Origin: an uncultured Pleurocapsa sp.
Lineage (GTDB): Bacteria; Cyanobacteriota; Cyanobacteriia; Cyanobacteriales; Xenococcaceae
NCBI GenBank assembly: GCA_938015355.1
Contig: CALLPS010000114.1
Span: 1-34,221, forward strand
Length of the DNA stretch: 34,221 bases
Direction: 5' to 3'
Of this stretch, positions 24,314-33,311 are shown one piece after another. A model generated the notes under the pieces. That model saw only the letters and a list, made by a program, of their open reading frames with translations. It had not been told where the DNA came from and made no database searches. The first letter of the stretch is position 1, and every line of letters begins with the position of its first letter. A program made the translations under genes and the position numbers.

Positions 24314-26779
24314 TTAATTCAAAATATCCCCACCCATCAGACGACGATAACGAATTTCTAATTCTTGTTTCAAAGAAGGAGAATTCTCCAGCATCTTGTC
24401 CGCAGCAATAATCTTTTCTGCTGCTTCCCTGGCTAAACTAAGCACCTCTTGATCTTCCACCAGACTGGCTAAGGCAAAATCTGGGAGTCCTGACTGACGA
24501 GTCCCTAATACGGCTCCTGGTCCCCGAAAACGCATATCTGCCTCAGAGATAAAGAAACCATCTTGAGATTCTTCTAGCACTGCTAAACGCTGTCTGGCTT
24601 CAATATTTTTGGTACTACTCATTAAAAAGCAATAGGACTTGCTGCTGCCCCTACCTACTCGTCCTCGCAACTGGTGTAATTGAGATAAACCAAAGCGTTC
24701 CGCATTTTCAATGACCATGACTGTGGCATTGGGGACATCTACCCCCACTTCAATTACTGTGGTCGAGACAATGATCTGACATTGGTTATCGCGGAAAGAG
24801 TTTAACGCGGCATCTTTATCGGCTGAATTCATACGACCATGTAAGAGGGCAATCTGAAATTCAGGAAATATAACTTCTGATAGGCGTTGATGTTCTTCTG
24901 TTGCCGCCTTTAGATCGAGTTTTTCTGATTCTTCTACTAAGGGGAAAATAATATAAGCCTGTCTCCCCTGAGCAATTTCTCGCCGAATCAGATCATAGAC
25001 TTTTTTACGATCCTTGCCTTTTTTTGCCATGGTACTAATTGCCTGTCTACCAGGGGGTAATTCATCAATTTGACTGACATCTAAATCACCATGGAGAGTT
25101 AACGCCAGAGTACGGGGAATCGGCGTAGCAGTCATAGTTAAAACGTGGGGAGACTTTCCTTTGCCTAACAAACGTGCTCGCTGGTGTACCCCAAAGCGAT
25201 GTTGTTCATCAATTACCGCCAAGCCAAGCTTATGAAACTTAACAGGGTCCTGAATTAAGGCATGAGTCCCCACTAGTAAAGGTAATTCACCGTTTTCCAG
25301 TTGAGAATGAATTTCTCGCCGTTTCGCGGTTTTAGTTGACCCTGTAAGCAACTCCACAGGTAAATGCAACATGTTAAACCAAGGGACTAACTTACGGTAA
25401 TGTTGTTCTGCTAATACTTCCGTGGGAGCCATTAATGCCGCCTGATAACCAGACTGAATTGCCGCCAGGATCGCATACACTGCCACAATGGTTTTTCCTG
25501 AACCCACATCTCCCTGTACTAAACGATTCATCGCCGTATCAGATGTACCTAAATCCTGAAAGATTTCTCCCACTACCCGTTGTTGGGCATTGGTTAAGGT
25601 AAAGGGGAGGATCTGATTAAACTGTTCAATTAATTTTCCTTGGGGGGCAAAACTAGCACTGGGTTGATTTTGTTTCAATTGTTGACGACGTTGTAAAAAC
25701 CCGAGCTGAAGATAGAAAAATTCGTCAAAAACCAGTCTGCGTCGCGCATGAGTTAGTTCTTCTCGGTTTTCGGGATAATGCAAACAGGCGATCGCATTTT
25801 TTAGTTTTACTAAGCCATATTGATTCCGTAGTTCACTGGGTAAAGGATCGGCTAACTGTGCCGCAGCGGGTAAGACAGCAATGACAGATTTCCTCACGGT
25901 GTCCGCTGGGACTCCCTCTGTTAAAGGATACACGGGTAACAGCCGACCAATTTTGATCGATTCGATACTTGCCCCCGCACCATCTAAAACTTCGATTTCT
26001 GGCTTATCTAAAGTAATGCCGTATTTATTTTGCTTAACTATGCCTGAAGCCGCAACAATTGAGCCGACAGGATACCGACGTTTATAGCTTTCTTGGGCAC
26101 CCCGATGACTAAATCTTGCTCCCATTAAAAAGCGATTGAGTTTTAATCTACCTGTAGCATCACTCAAAATTAACTCAAAGATGGTTAATTTCTTATTCTT
26201 CGGGCTACTAAAACATTTACAGCTTCTAACTGTTCCAATTACCGTTACCGTCTCCCCTGGCTCAAGATGGGTGATTTGTACCTGACGGGCATAGTCTAGA
26301 TGATCGCGGGGATAATAAAATAACAGATCCCTGACTGTATATAGTCCTAATCGCTCCAGGTAATTACTTCTGCGTCCAATATCAATCACCTCACTTAAAG
26401 GCTGATCTAGGGAAAGAGTTTGGTTAAAATAAGTCTTAGCTTTCGGGCTGCTTAGAGTTGCGGTGCGGGGAGCCTTCGGCGGGGGTGGGGTGCTGGGAGT
26501 TTCGACAAGAGCTTTTTGTTTATGTAAAAAATTACGGGTGCTGATTATTAACTGCTTTCTCTGAGACGAACTTAAGCTTTCATAGCCAGCAAACTTTTGA
26601 GCAATATCATGCCATTGGATCTTATCCCCAGCAGGAATATTTCTCGGTGGTTTGCCTAAACTAAGACAGAGAAACTCACTAAAGCGAAATTGGTTACCGA
26701 CTAAATCGATGTATCCTCTTTCTGCTTCTACCGATAATGCTTTCTGCAACCTCACCCAATCTAGCGCTTGTTCCGTCAT
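24314..26779 (-). CDS. recG: ATP-dependent DNA helicase RecG
   Basis: Wedge/OB region, RLVQGDVGSGKTIVA, VIDEQHRFGVHQR, TATPIPRTLALTLHGDLD, STTVIEVGVDVPNATVMVIENAERFGLSQLHQLRGRVGRG. Confidence 0.97.
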   Translation of the reverse strand: MTEQALDWVRLQKALSVEAERGYIDLVGNQFRFSEFLCLSLGKPPRNIPAGDKIQWHDIAQKFAGYESLSSSQRKQLIISTRNFLHKQKALVETPSTPPPPKAPRTATLSSPKAKTYFNQTLSLDQPLSEVIDIGRRSNYLERLGLYTVRDLLFYYPRDHLDYARQVQITHLEPGETVTVIGTVRSCKCFSSPKNKKLTIFELILSDATGRLKLNRFLMGARFSHRGAQESYKRRYPVGSIVAASGIVKQNKYGITLDKPEIEVLDGAGASIESIKIGRLLPVYPLTEGVPADTVRKSVIAVLPAAAQLADPLPSELRNQYGLVKLKNAIACLHYPENREELTHARRRLVFDEFFYLQLGFLQRRQQLKQNQPSASFAPQGKLIEQFNQILPFTLTNAQQRVVGEIFQDLGTSDTAMNRLVQGDVGSGKTIVAVYAILAAIQSGYQAALMAPTEVLAEQHYRKLVPWFNMLHLPVELLTGSTKTAKRREIHSQLENGELPLLVGTHALIQDPVKFHKLGLAVIDEQHRFGVHQRARLLGKGKSPHVLTMTATPIPRTLALTLHGDLDVSQIDELPPGRQAISTMAKKGKDRKKVYDLIRREIAQGRQAYIIFPLVEESEKLDLKAATEEHQRLSEVIFPEFQIALLHGRMNSADKDAALNSFRDNQCQIIVSTTVIEVGVDVPNATVMVIENAERFGLSQLHQLRGRVGRGSSKSYCFLMSSTKNIEARQRLAVLEESQDGFFISEADMRFRGPGAVLGTRQSGLPDFALASLVEDQEVLSLAREAAEKIIAADKMLENSPSLKQELEIRYRRLMGGDILN

Positions 26780-27054: not shown

Positions 27055-29385
27055 TCAAGTTTCTGTTGCAATTTGAATTACTTGCATTAAATCTTCAACA
27101 CGACAATGTTTAGCAGGAAGTAAACAAGGATAAACTTTTAAGCCTTCAATTTGATTTGCTGCTTCTGTGGTTTTGGTGTCTAAGGTGATTAAAGGTAACG
27201 CAGCCAAATATTCAGACTCTTGGAGCGATCGCAAGTATTGAGCGGGATTAACTATCTGGTAACTATCTAAAACAATTACGTCCAGTTGCCAGATACGAGC
27301 TAGAGTATGAGCTTGCTCCAGACTATCTGCTTCAATAATGCGGTGTTGATAATTTACCTGCTGCTCGTTATCATCTGACCAGCTTTTGAGATCGAAATTA
27401 GAACTATTGTCGTGATTATTGTCAGGAATAGTAACCTCTGATTCAGGATAAAGACAAAGAATCGTCACATTCCGATTATCAGTTTTATTTAAATTGCTCG
27501 GGGTTGTTGTCTCATTATCAGATAATTGATGATGGTCAACCGTTTTCTTGGGTAGCAGTAGGGTGAATTGACCGCAATCTGATGAATAATTACTGGTTAT
27601 ACTCCCCTGAAGAAACTTCGCCAAATATTCCGCAATAATTAAATCTAGTCCCGAATTTGGCAGAGACGAACCTGAGCTTTCTGAAATTGAAGACCAAGCA
27701 CTTGGGTTGATTCGGTTGCTACTGATTGAAATCGCCGTCAATCCTGACAAATTACGAATTTTGATATTAAGATTTTCTAGGGATTCAGAAACCCGAATTG
27801 TCTCCAAAATTAGATGAGAAAGTACTCCAGACAAGATTGATTTATTGGCGATCGCCATCTCACTTCCCAATTCTATATGCAACTTGATCCCAGCGGCGGC
27901 AACTACCAAGTCAGGGACTATTTCTCCGTCAAAAGACCGATAGGTGCGGCTCAAGCTTTTGTGCTCTGAGGATTGGTCAGAATTGGCGGAAATATTTGGT
28001 TTAACTTTAGCTAAAGCCTGTTGATAAAGTTGTCGACACAAAAACTCCAAATTAATTAATTCTGGCTCTAATAGCTCTTCAGTAGCTAAACTAGTTAGTT
28101 TTAATAGATTTTCGACAATATCCACCATTTTTTGTCCACTGCTATGGATTAGCTTTACATAACGAGCCTGTCGCTGATTTAGTTGACCTAGTTTTTGTTC
28201 TTGCAGCAGACTGGATAAGCCGACAATACCTGTCAGAGGGGATTTAAGTTCATGGCTCACCGTTGCTAGTAATCTACTAGTGACTGTTTCGGAAATCTGA
28301 GATGAAGAAGTTTCTTCGGAGTCTGAAGGGTCTTTAAAAGCGGCTTTAGTGCCTAAGACCAACCAATATGGGGTGTTCTTTGTAGAAAACCTGGGTTCAG
28401 CAACCAACGGGAATTTAAGATAATTCCAATCTGCTGTCCGTTCTATTTCTATGGCATGAGATGAATCGTTCTCATTCAACTTTTCTGGTGTCAAATTTTG
28501 GTTTGGAGAAGATGACACGGCATTTGTTAGAGATCTTTCAGGGTCAGAGTCTAAGCTACAGATCTTCGATATAAGACTAGACACAGATATAGGATCGTTA
28601 TGGTGCTGTTCATGATGATCTTTATGATCGGGTTGTATGGGCGATCTCTGTTGTCCTCTTTCCCCCGTCCCCTGCTGAATAGTCGTCTGACTCACTGTTG
28701 CTGGGGAACAACTATTCTCCGTGATTAACTGTTGCCAACACTTATTCTGATAAAGATCTTCCCCTGCCACCGTTTTTATTTTTAAAGGTAAAGCGATCGC
28801 GTCAATTAAATTACGGAGGGAAGTGAGAGAATTTGAGCCTTCGAGAGTGTTGCTAGATAGATCTTTAGATTCATGTTTAGATTCATGGGCTAGATGGTTA
28901 ATTACTTTAATTTTATCTAGTCTTCCCTGTAGCTCTCCTAACTCATTAACAATTAAACATTCGCTTTGATTATTAAGTACCGAAGCGTATTGTAAATGAT
29001 TCAAAAATTCATCAATTTTCGTATCTGCTTGATAAACCATCGCTGGTTTAATTAATGAATCAAAATTTTGAGTCGTTACATGGGCAATATTTTGCTGAGA
29101 GGGGATCTGACGTGGATGGCTCGCTAATACCATTTGTTTTCCCAACCATATTTCTGCAATCAGGGAGAGCAAATCCTCTGCATTGATTATGCCCCAACCC
29201 CCACAGCGTTGGGGAATTGCCAATATTTTACAGTTTAAATGCTGAAAAATATTCAGGACACTCCCTAAATCTGCCTCTGGTTGACAAATCGGAATTGGAT
29301 AGACAAAATCTTTAAGAGAAGTATAATTACTAACCATGATTGTCGAGTTCTTGTCCCTGAGATCAATATACCCAAAATCAAACAT
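27055..29385 (-). CDS. sensor-histidine-kinase-like protein: N-terminal CBS-like pair, HisKA, degenerate HATPase_c, C-terminal receiver-like domain
   Basis: H-box SRLLATVSHELKSPLTGIVGLSSLLQEQ; ATPase remnant LPNSGLDLIIAEYLAKFLQGSITSNYSSDCGQFTLLLP; receiver-like QLDVIVLDSYQI...PLITLDTKTTEAA. Alternative start at 29337 (MVSNYTSLKDF). Confidence 0.82.
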   Translation of the reverse strand: MFDFGYIDLRDKNSTIMVSNYTSLKDFVYPIPICQPEADLGSVLNIFQHLNCKILAIPQRCGGWGIINAEDLLSLIAEIWLGKQMVLASHPRQIPSQQNIAHVTTQNFDSLIKPAMVYQADTKIDEFLNHLQYASVLNNQSECLIVNELGELQGRLDKIKVINHLAHESKHESKDLSSNTLEGSNSLTSLRNLIDAIALPLKIKTVAGEDLYQNKCWQQLITENSCSPATVSQTTIQQGTGERGQQRSPIQPDHKDHHEQHHNDPISVSSLISKICSLDSDPERSLTNAVSSSPNQNLTPEKLNENDSSHAIEIERTADWNYLKFPLVAEPRFSTKNTPYWLVLGTKAAFKDPSDSEETSSSQISETVTSRLLATVSHELKSPLTGIVGLSSLLQEQKLGQLNQRQARYVKLIHSSGQKMVDIVENLLKLTSLATEELLEPELINLEFLCRQLYQQALAKVKPNISANSDQSSEHKSLSRTYRSFDGEIVPDLVVAAAGIKLHIELGSEMAIANKSILSGVLSHLILETIRVSESLENLNIKIRNLSGLTAISISSNRINPSAWSSISESSGSSLPNSGLDLIIAEYLAKFLQGSITSNYSSDCGQFTLLLPKKTVDHHQLSDNETTTPSNLNKTDNRNVTILCLYPESEVTIPDNNHDNSSNFDLKSWSDDNEQQVNYQHRIIEADSLEQAHTLARIWQLDVIVLDSYQIVNPAQYLRSLQESEYLAALPLITLDTKTTEAANQIEGLKVYPCLLPAKHCRVEDLMQVIQIATET

Positions 29386-30162
29386 AATGATTCTGGGGTA
29401 TACCGCTGAAAAATTTTCAATTAATCTTTGAAACCAGAAATTAAGAGCTTAATTTTTGGCTGCTAATCCTGAACTTTAGGCTTAATTTTACCTGGCTTAA
29501 GTTGCTGCAATATAGATAATACTTAAGTTTAATAATTATTAATTACCAACTATAAATTATCAAGTAAACGGCAGGATAAACTTTAGAATACCATCATGTC
29601 AGCTCTTAAGTAAGATCATAATTTCGGACAATTTAATATATATCTAAACTAATAAAAAATAAATATCCCTCAGAGATCTCTTCTTACTTGTTCTTACTAA
29701 TGAAGGGAAAATGACAAAGCTTGCTCTAACTTCAAATTTTTTCAATAAGTACTTTCGTCACCGAAATAATTCTTAATCTAACTTTTGATGACCAACCACA
29801 AAATGAGCATGACACAATAATATTGTCAACAATTAACTAATGGATATCTAAAATCTCTTATTCTCTCACTCTATGTTCTTCACCCTAAATAATTGCTAAC
29901 CTCATTTGATTTAATGACTATAAGCCTAAGATCCTTATTCTCTATAGAATACCGAACTCTTGGGGATGAGAAACTCAAACCAATTAAAATTTAATATTAA
30001 CAATATAAATATATTTCACAAGTAAAATAAGTTTAATTTAAGTTATATTTTGTTAAAATCCGCAAAATGACTCAATAAATGTTAACTTTTTATTAATAAA
30101 GACTCTTTAACAGTTTGGTCTAGGATGTCACTAAATCTTAAGCTAGGGAAGCAATCTATTCT

Positions 30163-30180
30163 TGCACAATAACCCGTGCA
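30163..30180. promoter_or_regulatory. Inverted repeat TGCAC-N8-GTGCA upstream of kaiA (candidate operator or hairpin)
   Basis: Perfect 5-bp arms, ~89 bp upstream of the kaiA ATG. Confidence 0.3.
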
Positions 30181-30268
30181 GTTGATGCTGTTTATCTTTA
30201 TTGAGATTTTGAAGCCAATATTTGTCCCCTAAGGACAGAGGCAGCCTCAACATATAACCCACTCAGCA

Positions 30269-31213
30269 ATGTCAGATTATCAAGATTCCCCTTTAAGTAG
30301 AGAAGCTACTCCGACTAAATTGTATATCTGCTTATTTTCCACTCAACAGCAGCTATCTAATTCAGTAATCAAACTATTAAATCGCGATCGCTACGAGTTT
30401 AAGTGTCTTAGTCTGGTGGAAGAGCTGATTGATTTTGTGGTAAAAAATCACGGGGGAATAGATTGCTTAATTCTATTGGGAGACTTCCAGTCAACCTCAG
30501 TCATAAAACAACTGAGACAATCAGAAATTTTGCTGCCTACGGTAATAGTGCAAAGTGATGAGCATATAAATACTCTGAGCACAACCAAAGCAGACTATGG
30601 CAAAATTTTAGCAGAGACAGCCGCCAACACTTTTTATCATCAGGCTGAGCTGCGACTATATTTTCCTCAGCTTGCGGAACTTAACTCCTATATTAACCTC
30701 GCAATTACTAAGTTTATTAGTCTTGCTCATAGTTCAAAAACTAAGCAGCATTCGCCACAAGTAAGAAAATCTCTAATTGCCCAGCAGCGTCGATTAACAG
30801 AAAAGCTCAAAGAGAGATTAAGTTATCGGGGAATTTACTATAAGCGCAATTATGATGCTTTTTACATTAACTTAACTTCCGAGGAACAAGAAAAACTTCA
30901 TTATAGATTAAGCCTCGTTTACCGCCAGATTTTGCTTGACTACTTTGACAATGACTCTCAGATAAACAAGTTAATTGATGAATTTGTTGATCAAGCTTTT
31001 TTTGCTGATATTTCTACTTCCCAGATTTTGGAAATACATATGGAGCTAATCGATGATTTTTCCTACCAGCTAAAAATCGAAGGTAGGAACGACGATATTC
31101 TACTTGATTACCGTTTACCACTGATTGATGTTATCTCTCATCTATGCGAGATGTATCGCCGTTCAGTTTCTGGACAAGATATCTCTTTAGAAATGCTATT
31201 TACAGTAGAATAA
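30269..31213 (+). CDS. kaiA: circadian clock protein KaiA (full length)
   Basis: N-terminal pseudo-receiver (LYICLFSTQQQLSNSVIKLL...) plus C-terminal helical KaiC-stimulating domain (LSYRGIYYKRNYDAFYINLTSEEQEKLHYRLSLVYRQILLDYF). Followed by kaiB and kaiC. Confidence 0.97.
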   Translation: MSDYQDSPLSREATPTKLYICLFSTQQQLSNSVIKLLNRDRYEFKCLSLVEELIDFVVKNHGGIDCLILLGDFQSTSVIKQLRQSEILLPTVIVQSDEHINTLSTTKADYGKILAETAANTFYHQAELRLYFPQLAELNSYINLAITKFISLAHSSKTKQHSPQVRKSLIAQQRRLTEKLKERLSYRGIYYKRNYDAFYINLTSEEQEKLHYRLSLVYRQILLDYFDNDSQINKLIDEFVDQAFFADISTSQILEIHMELIDDFSYQLKIEGRNDDILLDYRLPLIDVISHLCEMYRRSVSGQDISLEMLFTVE

Positions 31214-31314: not shown

Positions 31315-31626
31315 ATGGATCAATTTAGAAAGACTTACGTACTAAAATTGTATGTTGCTGGAAATACACCAAATTCAGTCAGAGCGCTGAAAACGCTCAA
31401 AAACATCTTAGAAAAAGACTTTCAGGGAGTATATGCTCTTAAAGTAATTGATGTTTTGAAAAATCCGCAACTAGCTGAAGAAGATAAAATATTGGCAACT
31501 CCAACCTTATCCAAGGTGTTGCCCCCTCCTGTTCGGAAAATTATTGGCGATTTGAGCGATCGCGAGAAAGTATTGATTGGGCTAGATTTGCTCTATGAGG
31601 AAATTCGTGAACAAAGATTATTGTAA
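31315..31626 (+). CDS. kaiB: circadian clock protein KaiB
   Basis: [88 protein letters not shown]. Confidence 0.98.
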
Positions 31627-31724: not shown

Positions 31725-33311
31725 ATGAACGAACTAAATCCCCATAATCAGCCACCACAGCAAGAAATAATGACCAAGGGAGTCCGAAAAATCCGTACCA
31801 TGATTGAAGGATTTGATGAAATCACTCATGGCGGCTTACCTATTGGCAGAACCACTTTAGTTAGTGGAACTTCTGGAACAGGAAAAACCCTATTAGCAGT
31901 GCAATTTCTTTATCTGGGGATCGAATTTTTTGATTGCCCAGGAATCTTTGTTACTTTTGAAGAATCTCCCAAAGACATTATAGAAAATGCCTTTAGTTTT
32001 GGCTGGGATTTACAGGGTCTAATTGATCGGGGCAAGCTTTTTATTTTAGATGCTTCCCCTGATCCAGAAGGGCAGGAAGTTGTGGGTAATTTCGATTTAT
32101 CGGCATTAATTGAGCGCATCCAGTACGCAATTCGCAAGTATAAAGCAAAGCTAGTTTCGATTGATTCTGTAACGGCAGTATTCCAGCAATATGATGCCGC
32201 TTCAGTTGTGAGGCGGGAAATTTTTCGCTTGGTGGCTCGTCTCAAGCAATTAGAAGTCACCTCGATCTTGACCACAGAAAGAGTTGAAGAATACGGCGCA
32301 ATCGCCCGTTTTGGAGTTGAGGAGTTTGTTTCCGATAACGTGATTGTGCTGCGTAATGTTCTAGAAGGAGAACGTCGTCGTCGCACCATCGAAATCCTCA
32401 AATTGCGAGGAACCACTCATATGAAAGGAGAATATCCTTTTACCATGACTAATGATGGTATTAATATTTTTCCTTTGGGGGCAATGCGTCTTACTCAGCG
32501 TTCTTCTAATGTTCGTCGCTCTTCGGGAGTTAAAACTCTAGATCGACTCTGTGGAGGAGGTTTCTTCAAAGATTCGATTATTCTAGCTACTGGAGCCACA
32601 GGGACAGGTAAAACTTTGTTGGTGAGTAAATTTCTGGAAGAGGGCTGTCGTCAGGGAGAAAAAGCCGTATTGTTTGCTTATGAAGAGTCTAGAGCACAGC
32701 TATCTCGTAATGCATCTTCTTGGGGGGTAGATTTTGAGGAAATGGAGCGCAAAGGTCTACTCAAACTACTCTGTTGCTACCCTGAATCAGCAGGTTTAGA
32801 AGATCATTTACAAATGATCAAATCGGAGATTACAGACTTTAAACCGTCGCGGATCGCGATCGATTCTCTTTCGGCATTGGCTAGAGGAGTCACGAATAAC
32901 GCTTTTCGTCAGTTTGTGATTGGAGTCACTGGTTATGCCAAACAAGAAGAAATCACAGGCTTTTTTACCAATACAACTGATCAGTTTTTGGGAGCTAATT
33001 CCATTACTGAATCCCACATTTCTACTATTACCGACACCATTATTCTCTTACAATACGTAGAAATTCGCGGGGAGATGTCCCGTGCGATGAACGTTTTCAA
33101 AATGCGTGGTTCTTGGCATGATAAAGGTATTAGAGAATATGTAATTAGTTCCGAAGCACCAGAAATTCCCTTTATTAAAGAATCTTTCCGCAATTACGAA
33201 GGTATAATCAGTGGCTCGCCATCTCGCGTATCCTTCAACGAGAAAAACGAATTATCGAGAATTGCTCGTAACGTAAAAGATATTAATCTCGATTTGAAAG
33301 ATGAAGAATAA
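31725..33311 (+). CDS. kaiC: circadian clock ATPase/kinase KaiC
   Basis: Two RecA-like domains, Walker A GTSGTGKT and GATGTGKT; conserved phosphosite context ESHISTITDTIILLQYVEIRGEMSRAMNVFKMRGSWHDKGIREY. Confidence 0.99.
   Translation: MNELNPHNQPPQQEIMTKGVRKIRTMIEGFDEITHGGLPIGRTTLVSGTSGTGKTLLAVQFLYLGIEFFDCPGIFVTFEESPKDIIENAFSFGWDLQGLIDRGKLFILDASPDPEGQEVVGNFDLSALIERIQYAIRKYKAKLVSIDSVTAVFQQYDAASVVRREIFRLVARLKQLEVTSILTTERVEEYGAIARFGVEEFVSDNVIVLRNVLEGERRRRTIEILKLRGTTHMKGEYPFTMTNDGINIFPLGAMRLTQRSSNVRRSSGVKTLDRLCGGGFFKDSIILATGATGTGKTLLVSKFLEEGCRQGEKAVLFAYEESRAQLSRNASSWGVDFEEMERKGLLKLLCCYPESAGLEDHLQMIKSEITDFKPSRIAIDSLSALARGVTNNAFRQFVIGVTGYAKQEEITGFFTNTTDQFLGANSITESHISTITDTIILLQYVEIRGEMSRAMNVFKMRGSWHDKGIREYVISSEAPEIPFIKESFRNYEGIISGSPSRVSFNEKNELSRIARNVKDINLDLKDEE

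Follow-up and report, generated by a model that had tools for sequence, protein, structure and literature searches.

The analyzed window, a 34,221-nucleotide stretch of one contig from an uncultured Pleurocapsa sp., carries kaiA, kaiB and kaiC in this order on the forward strand and, 883 bp from kaiA, a divergently oriented open reading frame (ORF) encoding a histidine kinase-like protein (Table 1). The original prediction had placed this gene divergent from kaiABC, an arrangement that was borne out, and all of the motifs it quoted were present in the encoded protein. The exact extent of the ORF was confirmed and it contained no internal stops, although its true start is likely M17 (window position 29337), judging from the N-termini of orthologues. 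A same-strand ORF downstream of the kinase gene (24314-26779) was named RecG-like from its sequence. The source assembly (4.0 Mb, 81% complete, about 46 HisKA places) had Pleurocapsa, Myxosarcina and Hyellaceae/Xenococcaceae as its nearest named relatives.

Table 1. Features of the kinase gene and the neighbouring kai locus (window positions; res, residues of the 776-aa protein; CTD, C-terminal domain).
Feature	Position	Strand	Basis or remark
ORF of the kaiA-divergent predicted pseudo-histidine kinase	27055..29385	-	776 aa
CBS-pair-like N-terminal module, res 20-170	28876..29328	-	CBS matches of homologues; alpha/beta pattern, pLDDT mostly 80-90
PAS-like region and long disordered insert, res 185-347	28345..28833	-	secondary structure
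HisKA dimerisation/phosphoacceptor domain, res 366-433	28087..28290	-	PF00512, E 6e-16
Phosphoacceptor His378 codon	28252..28254	-	H in 105/105 family members
Degenerate HATPase-like domain, res 434-615	27541..28086	-	HATPase_c match absent; N, D and G boxes lost
N-box position, reads LSGVLSHLILETIRVS	27787..27834	-	alignment
D-box/lid position, without DxGxG	27655..27726	-	alignment
G2-box remnant NSGLDLIIAEYL	27622..27657	-	alignment
C-terminal pseudo-receiver domain (CTD), res 638-776, family hallmark	27058..27474	-	
Asp707, beta3 Asp position	27265..27267	-	D 82, N 11, E 11 of 105
Cys754 of the near-invariant Pro-Cys at the receiver Lys position	27124..27126	-	C in 104/105
Intergenic region common to kaiA and the kinase gene	29386..30268	.	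883 bp
Congener-conserved block 5' of kaiA, CGCAAA-N6-CAATAAATGTTAA	30061..30085	+	congener comparison
kaiA	30269..31213	+	PF07688, PF21714
kaiB	31315..31626	+	TIGR02654
kaiC	31725..33311	+	TIGR02655

Within the intergenic region, the sequence GCAAA-N6-CAATAAATGTTAA was exact and single-copy in 3/3 congener genomes, each time upstream of kaiA. In the window this block (30061-30085) lies about 185 bp 5' of kaiA, and is a probable promoter or regulator site of that gene.

HisKA (residues 370-433, E 6e-16) was the sole Pfam domain found in the window protein, HATPase_c, CBS and REC giving no Pfam match even at E <= 10. The CBS, ATPase and receiver domains that had been proposed earlier turned out to be right by homology, since family homologues match the corresponding Pfam domains (CBS in 23/28, HATPase_c in 25/28 and Response_reg in 23/28, with HisKA in 28/28); PAS_8 and PAS_4 gave weak matches in a few homologues. 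The predicted model of the window protein (mean pLDDT 65, with good domains and poor linkers) comprised a CBS-pair, a PAS-like region, a two-helix HisKA, an ATPase-like domain and a (beta-alpha)5 topology, i.e. the fold series of the family minus its first receiver, and agreed with the CBS-pair, ATPase-like and receiver-type calls. The CBS pair fold was supported by both the family Pfam matches and the model, but the T/S...D positions of nucleotide-binding CBS motifs were unconserved in the family alignment, so that the adenylate sensing suggested earlier is unsupported. Compared with a functional histidine kinase, the phosphoacceptor His of the H-box was present, as predicted (H378, within HisKA), whereas the N-box Asn, the D-box DxGxG and the G boxes were absent. 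Under the definition of a pseudo-histidine kinase as a histidine kinase homologue without one or more histidine kinase functions (PMC12632262), the window protein is a candidate by its sequence, with a predicted loss of activity.

Modelled alone, the CTD adopted a (beta-alpha)5 receiver fold (pLDDT 82), and its Foldseek matches were REC domains (probability 1.0, TM about 0.5-0.6); HMM comparison with receivers gave weak matches. The earlier description of a receiver-like tail with an Asp held for the Asp, but the tail is missing the Lys and the remaining acidic residues of a working receiver: the acidic pair after beta1 was absent and Pro-Cys was found in place of Lys, with the Asp and the beta4 Thr (kept in 96/105) retained. 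This corresponds to the published definition of a pseudo-receiver (PMC12632262). The Pro-Cys (residues 753-754, window 27124-27129), standing where receivers have Lys, is a possible redox or ligand site. The first receiver of the family, in turn, showed Asn at the phospho-site in 97/100 members. An origin of the CTD from the N-terminal pseudo-receiver of KaiA was unsupported (hhalign probability 1%), and the 50 CTD Foldseek matches listed did not include CikA.

Judged by sequence, the window gene belongs, as a derived form, to a large family of cyanobacterial proteins with the usual order CBS-PAS-HisKA-HATPase-pseudoREC-CTD, the long members of which have an additional receiver-like tail. Orthologues were retrieved from the window sequence at E values down to 1e-220, and strong matches were found in 28 genomes (the window's own included) of the 120 genomes of the order searched; in 23 of the 27 surrounding stretches, kaiA and the kinase gene were divergently oriented, one KaiA match being weak. 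A CTD profile was then compared with GTDB r220, which gave 258 relatives, of which 80 were kept; because this profile was seeded from sequence similarity and not from the kaiA neighbourhood, the linkage obtained with it is not circular. The window CTD, itself part of the profile, matched profile A1/A3 at E 5.5e-53, as a single copy in its genome. In named GTDB genomes, 75 relatives lie on contigs that continue upstream, and 70 of them are divergent from kaiA, nearly always with kaiB and kaiC present. At the level of the class, the family CTD was carried by 122 of 195 genomes, and kaiA was found in all 122 carriers. The place of kaiA was listed for 112 of these, and in 101 of the 112 placeable orthologues the gene was divergent from kaiA within 6 kb, several of the 11 remaining cases having kinase and kaiA on separate contigs of fragmented assemblies. 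The family occurred in 122/174 genomes with kaiA vs. 0/21 genomes without it (Fisher p 1e-10, phylogeny ignored). A recognisable member was missing from the other 52 of the 174 kaiA-carrying genomes, no family match came from the S. elongatus-like genomes in the sample (2.7-2.8 Mb, KaiA of about 290 aa), and some members from Crocosphaera, Spirulina and Tychonema do not adjoin kaiA.

Across the class, the gene has kept its linkage to kaiA. Orthologues lay beside the kai genes both in the class-wide set and in named genomes, and were missing from genomes without kaiA; the outcome named as speaking against the original prediction, orthologues lying away from kai genes, did not occur. Of the clock component that it had put forward, the linkage is strongly supported by synteny (101/112, 70/75 and 0/21), and adenylate sensing is the part left unsupported. 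Since relatives adjoin kaiA in most cyanobacteria carrying them, the product of the window gene is very likely a clock-linked signalling protein, so far uncharacterised. Synteny alone is no proof of clock function, and the gene could act in a non-clock pathway, its position beside kaiA being due only to a shared regulatory region. The linkage exceptions and the variable kaiA-to-kinase spacing (about 0.1 to 1.7 kb across relatives) would suit such an origin, which nevertheless appears improbable, as the linkage together with the absence from all sampled kaiA-less genomes exceeds the expectation from promoter sharing alone, and the conserved intergenic block lies near kaiA and not near the kinase gene.

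Canonical N and D boxes were present in 89 of the 105 family members and absent in 16 rows (12 without duplicate genomes), while the His was invariant, every decayed member included. The canonical ATPase is probably ancestral in the family, and the decay in the window lineage would be derived, because the family consists mostly, and probably ancestrally, of canonical hybrid kinases. The earlier reading of the protein as a pseudokinase consequently applies to the window lineage but not to the family as a whole. Decayed members grouped in the tree within Xenococcaceae/Pleurocapsa, plus separate single lineages, which corresponds to at least three state changes, with details made unsure by long branches and a weakly supported deep placement. 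The window protein, L039, L040 and L068 were without the first receiver, which all remaining decayed members have; its absence in the window's clade is read as a derived loss. Alignment with congeners confirmed the predicted loss of the N-box and DxGxG and the survival of a G2-like remnant. Assembly error or frameshift as the cause of the decay was rejected: several congeners were without the same boxes, including the isolate Pleurocapsa sp. CCALA 161 and a one-contig genome, and the decay is therefore real.

At equal CTD identity (45-55%), the average HATPase identity was 28% in decayed pairs vs. 63% in canonical pairs. Between the window gene and a congener, dN/dS values were 0.05 for HisKA, 0.13 for the CTD and 0.28 for HATPase, with synonymous sites near saturation, and the ranges over decayed pairs were similarly ordered (0.05-0.14, 0.13-0.23 and 0.28-0.41, respectively). 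HATPase values in canonical pairs were mostly 0.06-0.13, with one canonical Xenococcaceae pair at 0.30. Based on the identity gap and on these ratios, the ATPase has been relaxed while the phosphoacceptor helices and the tail were kept; HisKA with its His and the C-terminal pseudo-receiver are under purifying selection. HATPase ratios of 0.28-0.41 also indicate that some constraint is left, and residual nucleotide binding is therefore possible.

The same data bear on a slow decay of the whole gene, in which the ATPase and the first receiver were lost, the rest is heading to a pseudogene, and the kaiA linkage is a historical remnant. Such a course would account for the relaxed HATPase, the fast drift of the PAS-like region, the split ORF in G046 and the broken ORF in L067, but it is unlikely in view of the long open ORFs kept in the window, L039 and L068 despite deep divergence, the dN/dS of HisKA and CTD far under 1, and the fact that separate lineages show decay in this one domain but never lose the His; moreover, the L067 break comes from a metagenome-assembled genome (MAG) of 4x coverage. 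Continued kinase activity from an unorthodox ATP site, with the Bergerat fold retained and nucleotide bound via diverged motifs, was considered very unlikely: the protein has lost the Asn of the N-box and the Asp of the D-box, residues that in known histidine kinases coordinate Mg and adenine, and the lid region is of low confidence and different in each congener, even though the ATPase-like secondary structure is kept, Foldseek matches to whole kinases were obtained, and HATPase dN/dS is below 1.

In a one-contig congener genome, an in-frame TAA behind the CBS module interrupts the orthologue (L040:8270-10314), and the segment from HisKA to the CTD can be read from an ATG of its own; in the split gene of G046, this open segment amounts to 449 aa.

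Among known systems, CikA is, like the window protein, a soluble hybrid histidine kinase with a terminal pseudo-receiver and a link to the Kai clock, and it works partly via non-catalytic contacts, by analogy similar to the role proposed below. CikA has a GAF domain, whereas the family has CBS and PAS (GAF in 0/28 members), and the CTD sequence forms a family of its own; CikA is not known to be encoded next to kaiA. SasA is also a HisKA kinase and belongs to the Kai output pathway, but its KaiB-like N-domain and intact ATPase are both absent from the window protein. The source genome encodes a separate intact SasA (507 bits), so the window protein does not replace it. Orthology to CikA or SasA was rejected on domain make-up. 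Foldseek matches of the window protein included structures of DivL (a pseudokinase), RetS and NifL, a type in which the HisKA/HATPase fold persists with catalysis partly lost and signalling proceeds by protein contact; DivL lost its His, whereas the window protein keeps the His and lost the ATP site, and the input domains differ. Canonical family members (Nostoc, Fischerella, Spirulina, Coleofasciculus) share the CBS pair, PAS, HisKA, CTD and the kaiA-divergent position, but keep the N/D/G boxes and the first receiver (phospho-site Asn), both lost in the window protein.

The window protein combines loss of the ATP-site motifs, retention of the His and the pseudo-receiver, and kaiA linkage. The favoured explanation, with a probability of roughly 0.55, is that a member of the kaiA-linked family has here turned into a pseudo-histidine kinase serving as a clock input/output adaptor and not as a kinase. 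Given the lost ATP-site motifs, autophosphorylation would no longer be possible; HisKA dimers would form, their state being set by the CBS/PAS-like input module, and the H-box would exchange phosphate (accepting and returning it) with a clock-pathway response regulator of the RpaA/RpaB class or, alternatively, act as a docking and phosphatase surface. The pseudo-receiver would be a conserved contact, perhaps to Kai proteins as in CikA, by which the protein would modulate clock input/output as an adaptor. Precedents are the pseudo-receivers of CikA and KaiA, which bind KaiB or quinones (PMC12632262). A putative scaffold role or phosphorylation in trans, as originally suggested, is compatible with these data; the genome held no close paralogue as a trans-kinase (best 35% identity over the HisKA region).

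A catalytic sub-version of the adaptor explanation is a sink for reverse phosphotransfer or phosphatase activity, in which HisKA would take phosphate from, or dephosphorylate, RpaA/RpaB charged by SasA. H378 and the H-box sequence HELKSPLT rank with the best-conserved features of the window's clade, and the genome has an intact SasA, but HisKA phosphatases often require the ATPase domain for regulation, and this sub-version is considered rather unlikely. More broadly than the adaptor explanation, and only tentatively, the whole family might be a widespread clock component, the pseudo-receiver of which, with its near-invariant Pro-Cys, would contact the Kai oscillator or RpaA, and which would operate free of catalysis in Pleurocapsa-type cyanobacteria.

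Pseudo-histidine kinases are already known as a class, and the main novelty lies in the kaiA synteny of the family. No description of a kinase upstream of or divergent from kaiA was found in the open papers searched, and term searches of Schmelling 2017 (PMC5520375), Dvornyk & Mei 2021 (PMC8113500) and Koebler 2024 (PMC11372060) returned no kaiA-linked kinase. The probable Anabaena orthologue is all2883, from its tag order beside kaiA (alr2884); its sole mention in the papers searched was among predicted CRP targets (PMC2633013). The kai genes of Cyanothece 51142 are reported to belong to a larger conserved cluster (PMC11065991). The clock has mostly been studied in S. elongatus; if the family is a clock factor, most cyanobacteria would carry a component missed by work on the model strain, and Anabaena, for example, is a tractable relative in which it could be tested directly. 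The decayed lineage would then be a natural experiment, suggesting that HisKA and the C-terminal pseudo-receiver matter once the kinase chemistry is gone.

Two further loci were atypical. One family member has as its neighbour a KaiA-like N-terminal match (L044:2994-3359) that is strongly diverged, at 29% identity, and KaiC is present nearby as a fragment match only. A Hydrococcus-like kai locus lies on contig L074, which was deposited as Candidatus Gracilibacteria and is probably a misbinned MAG contig.
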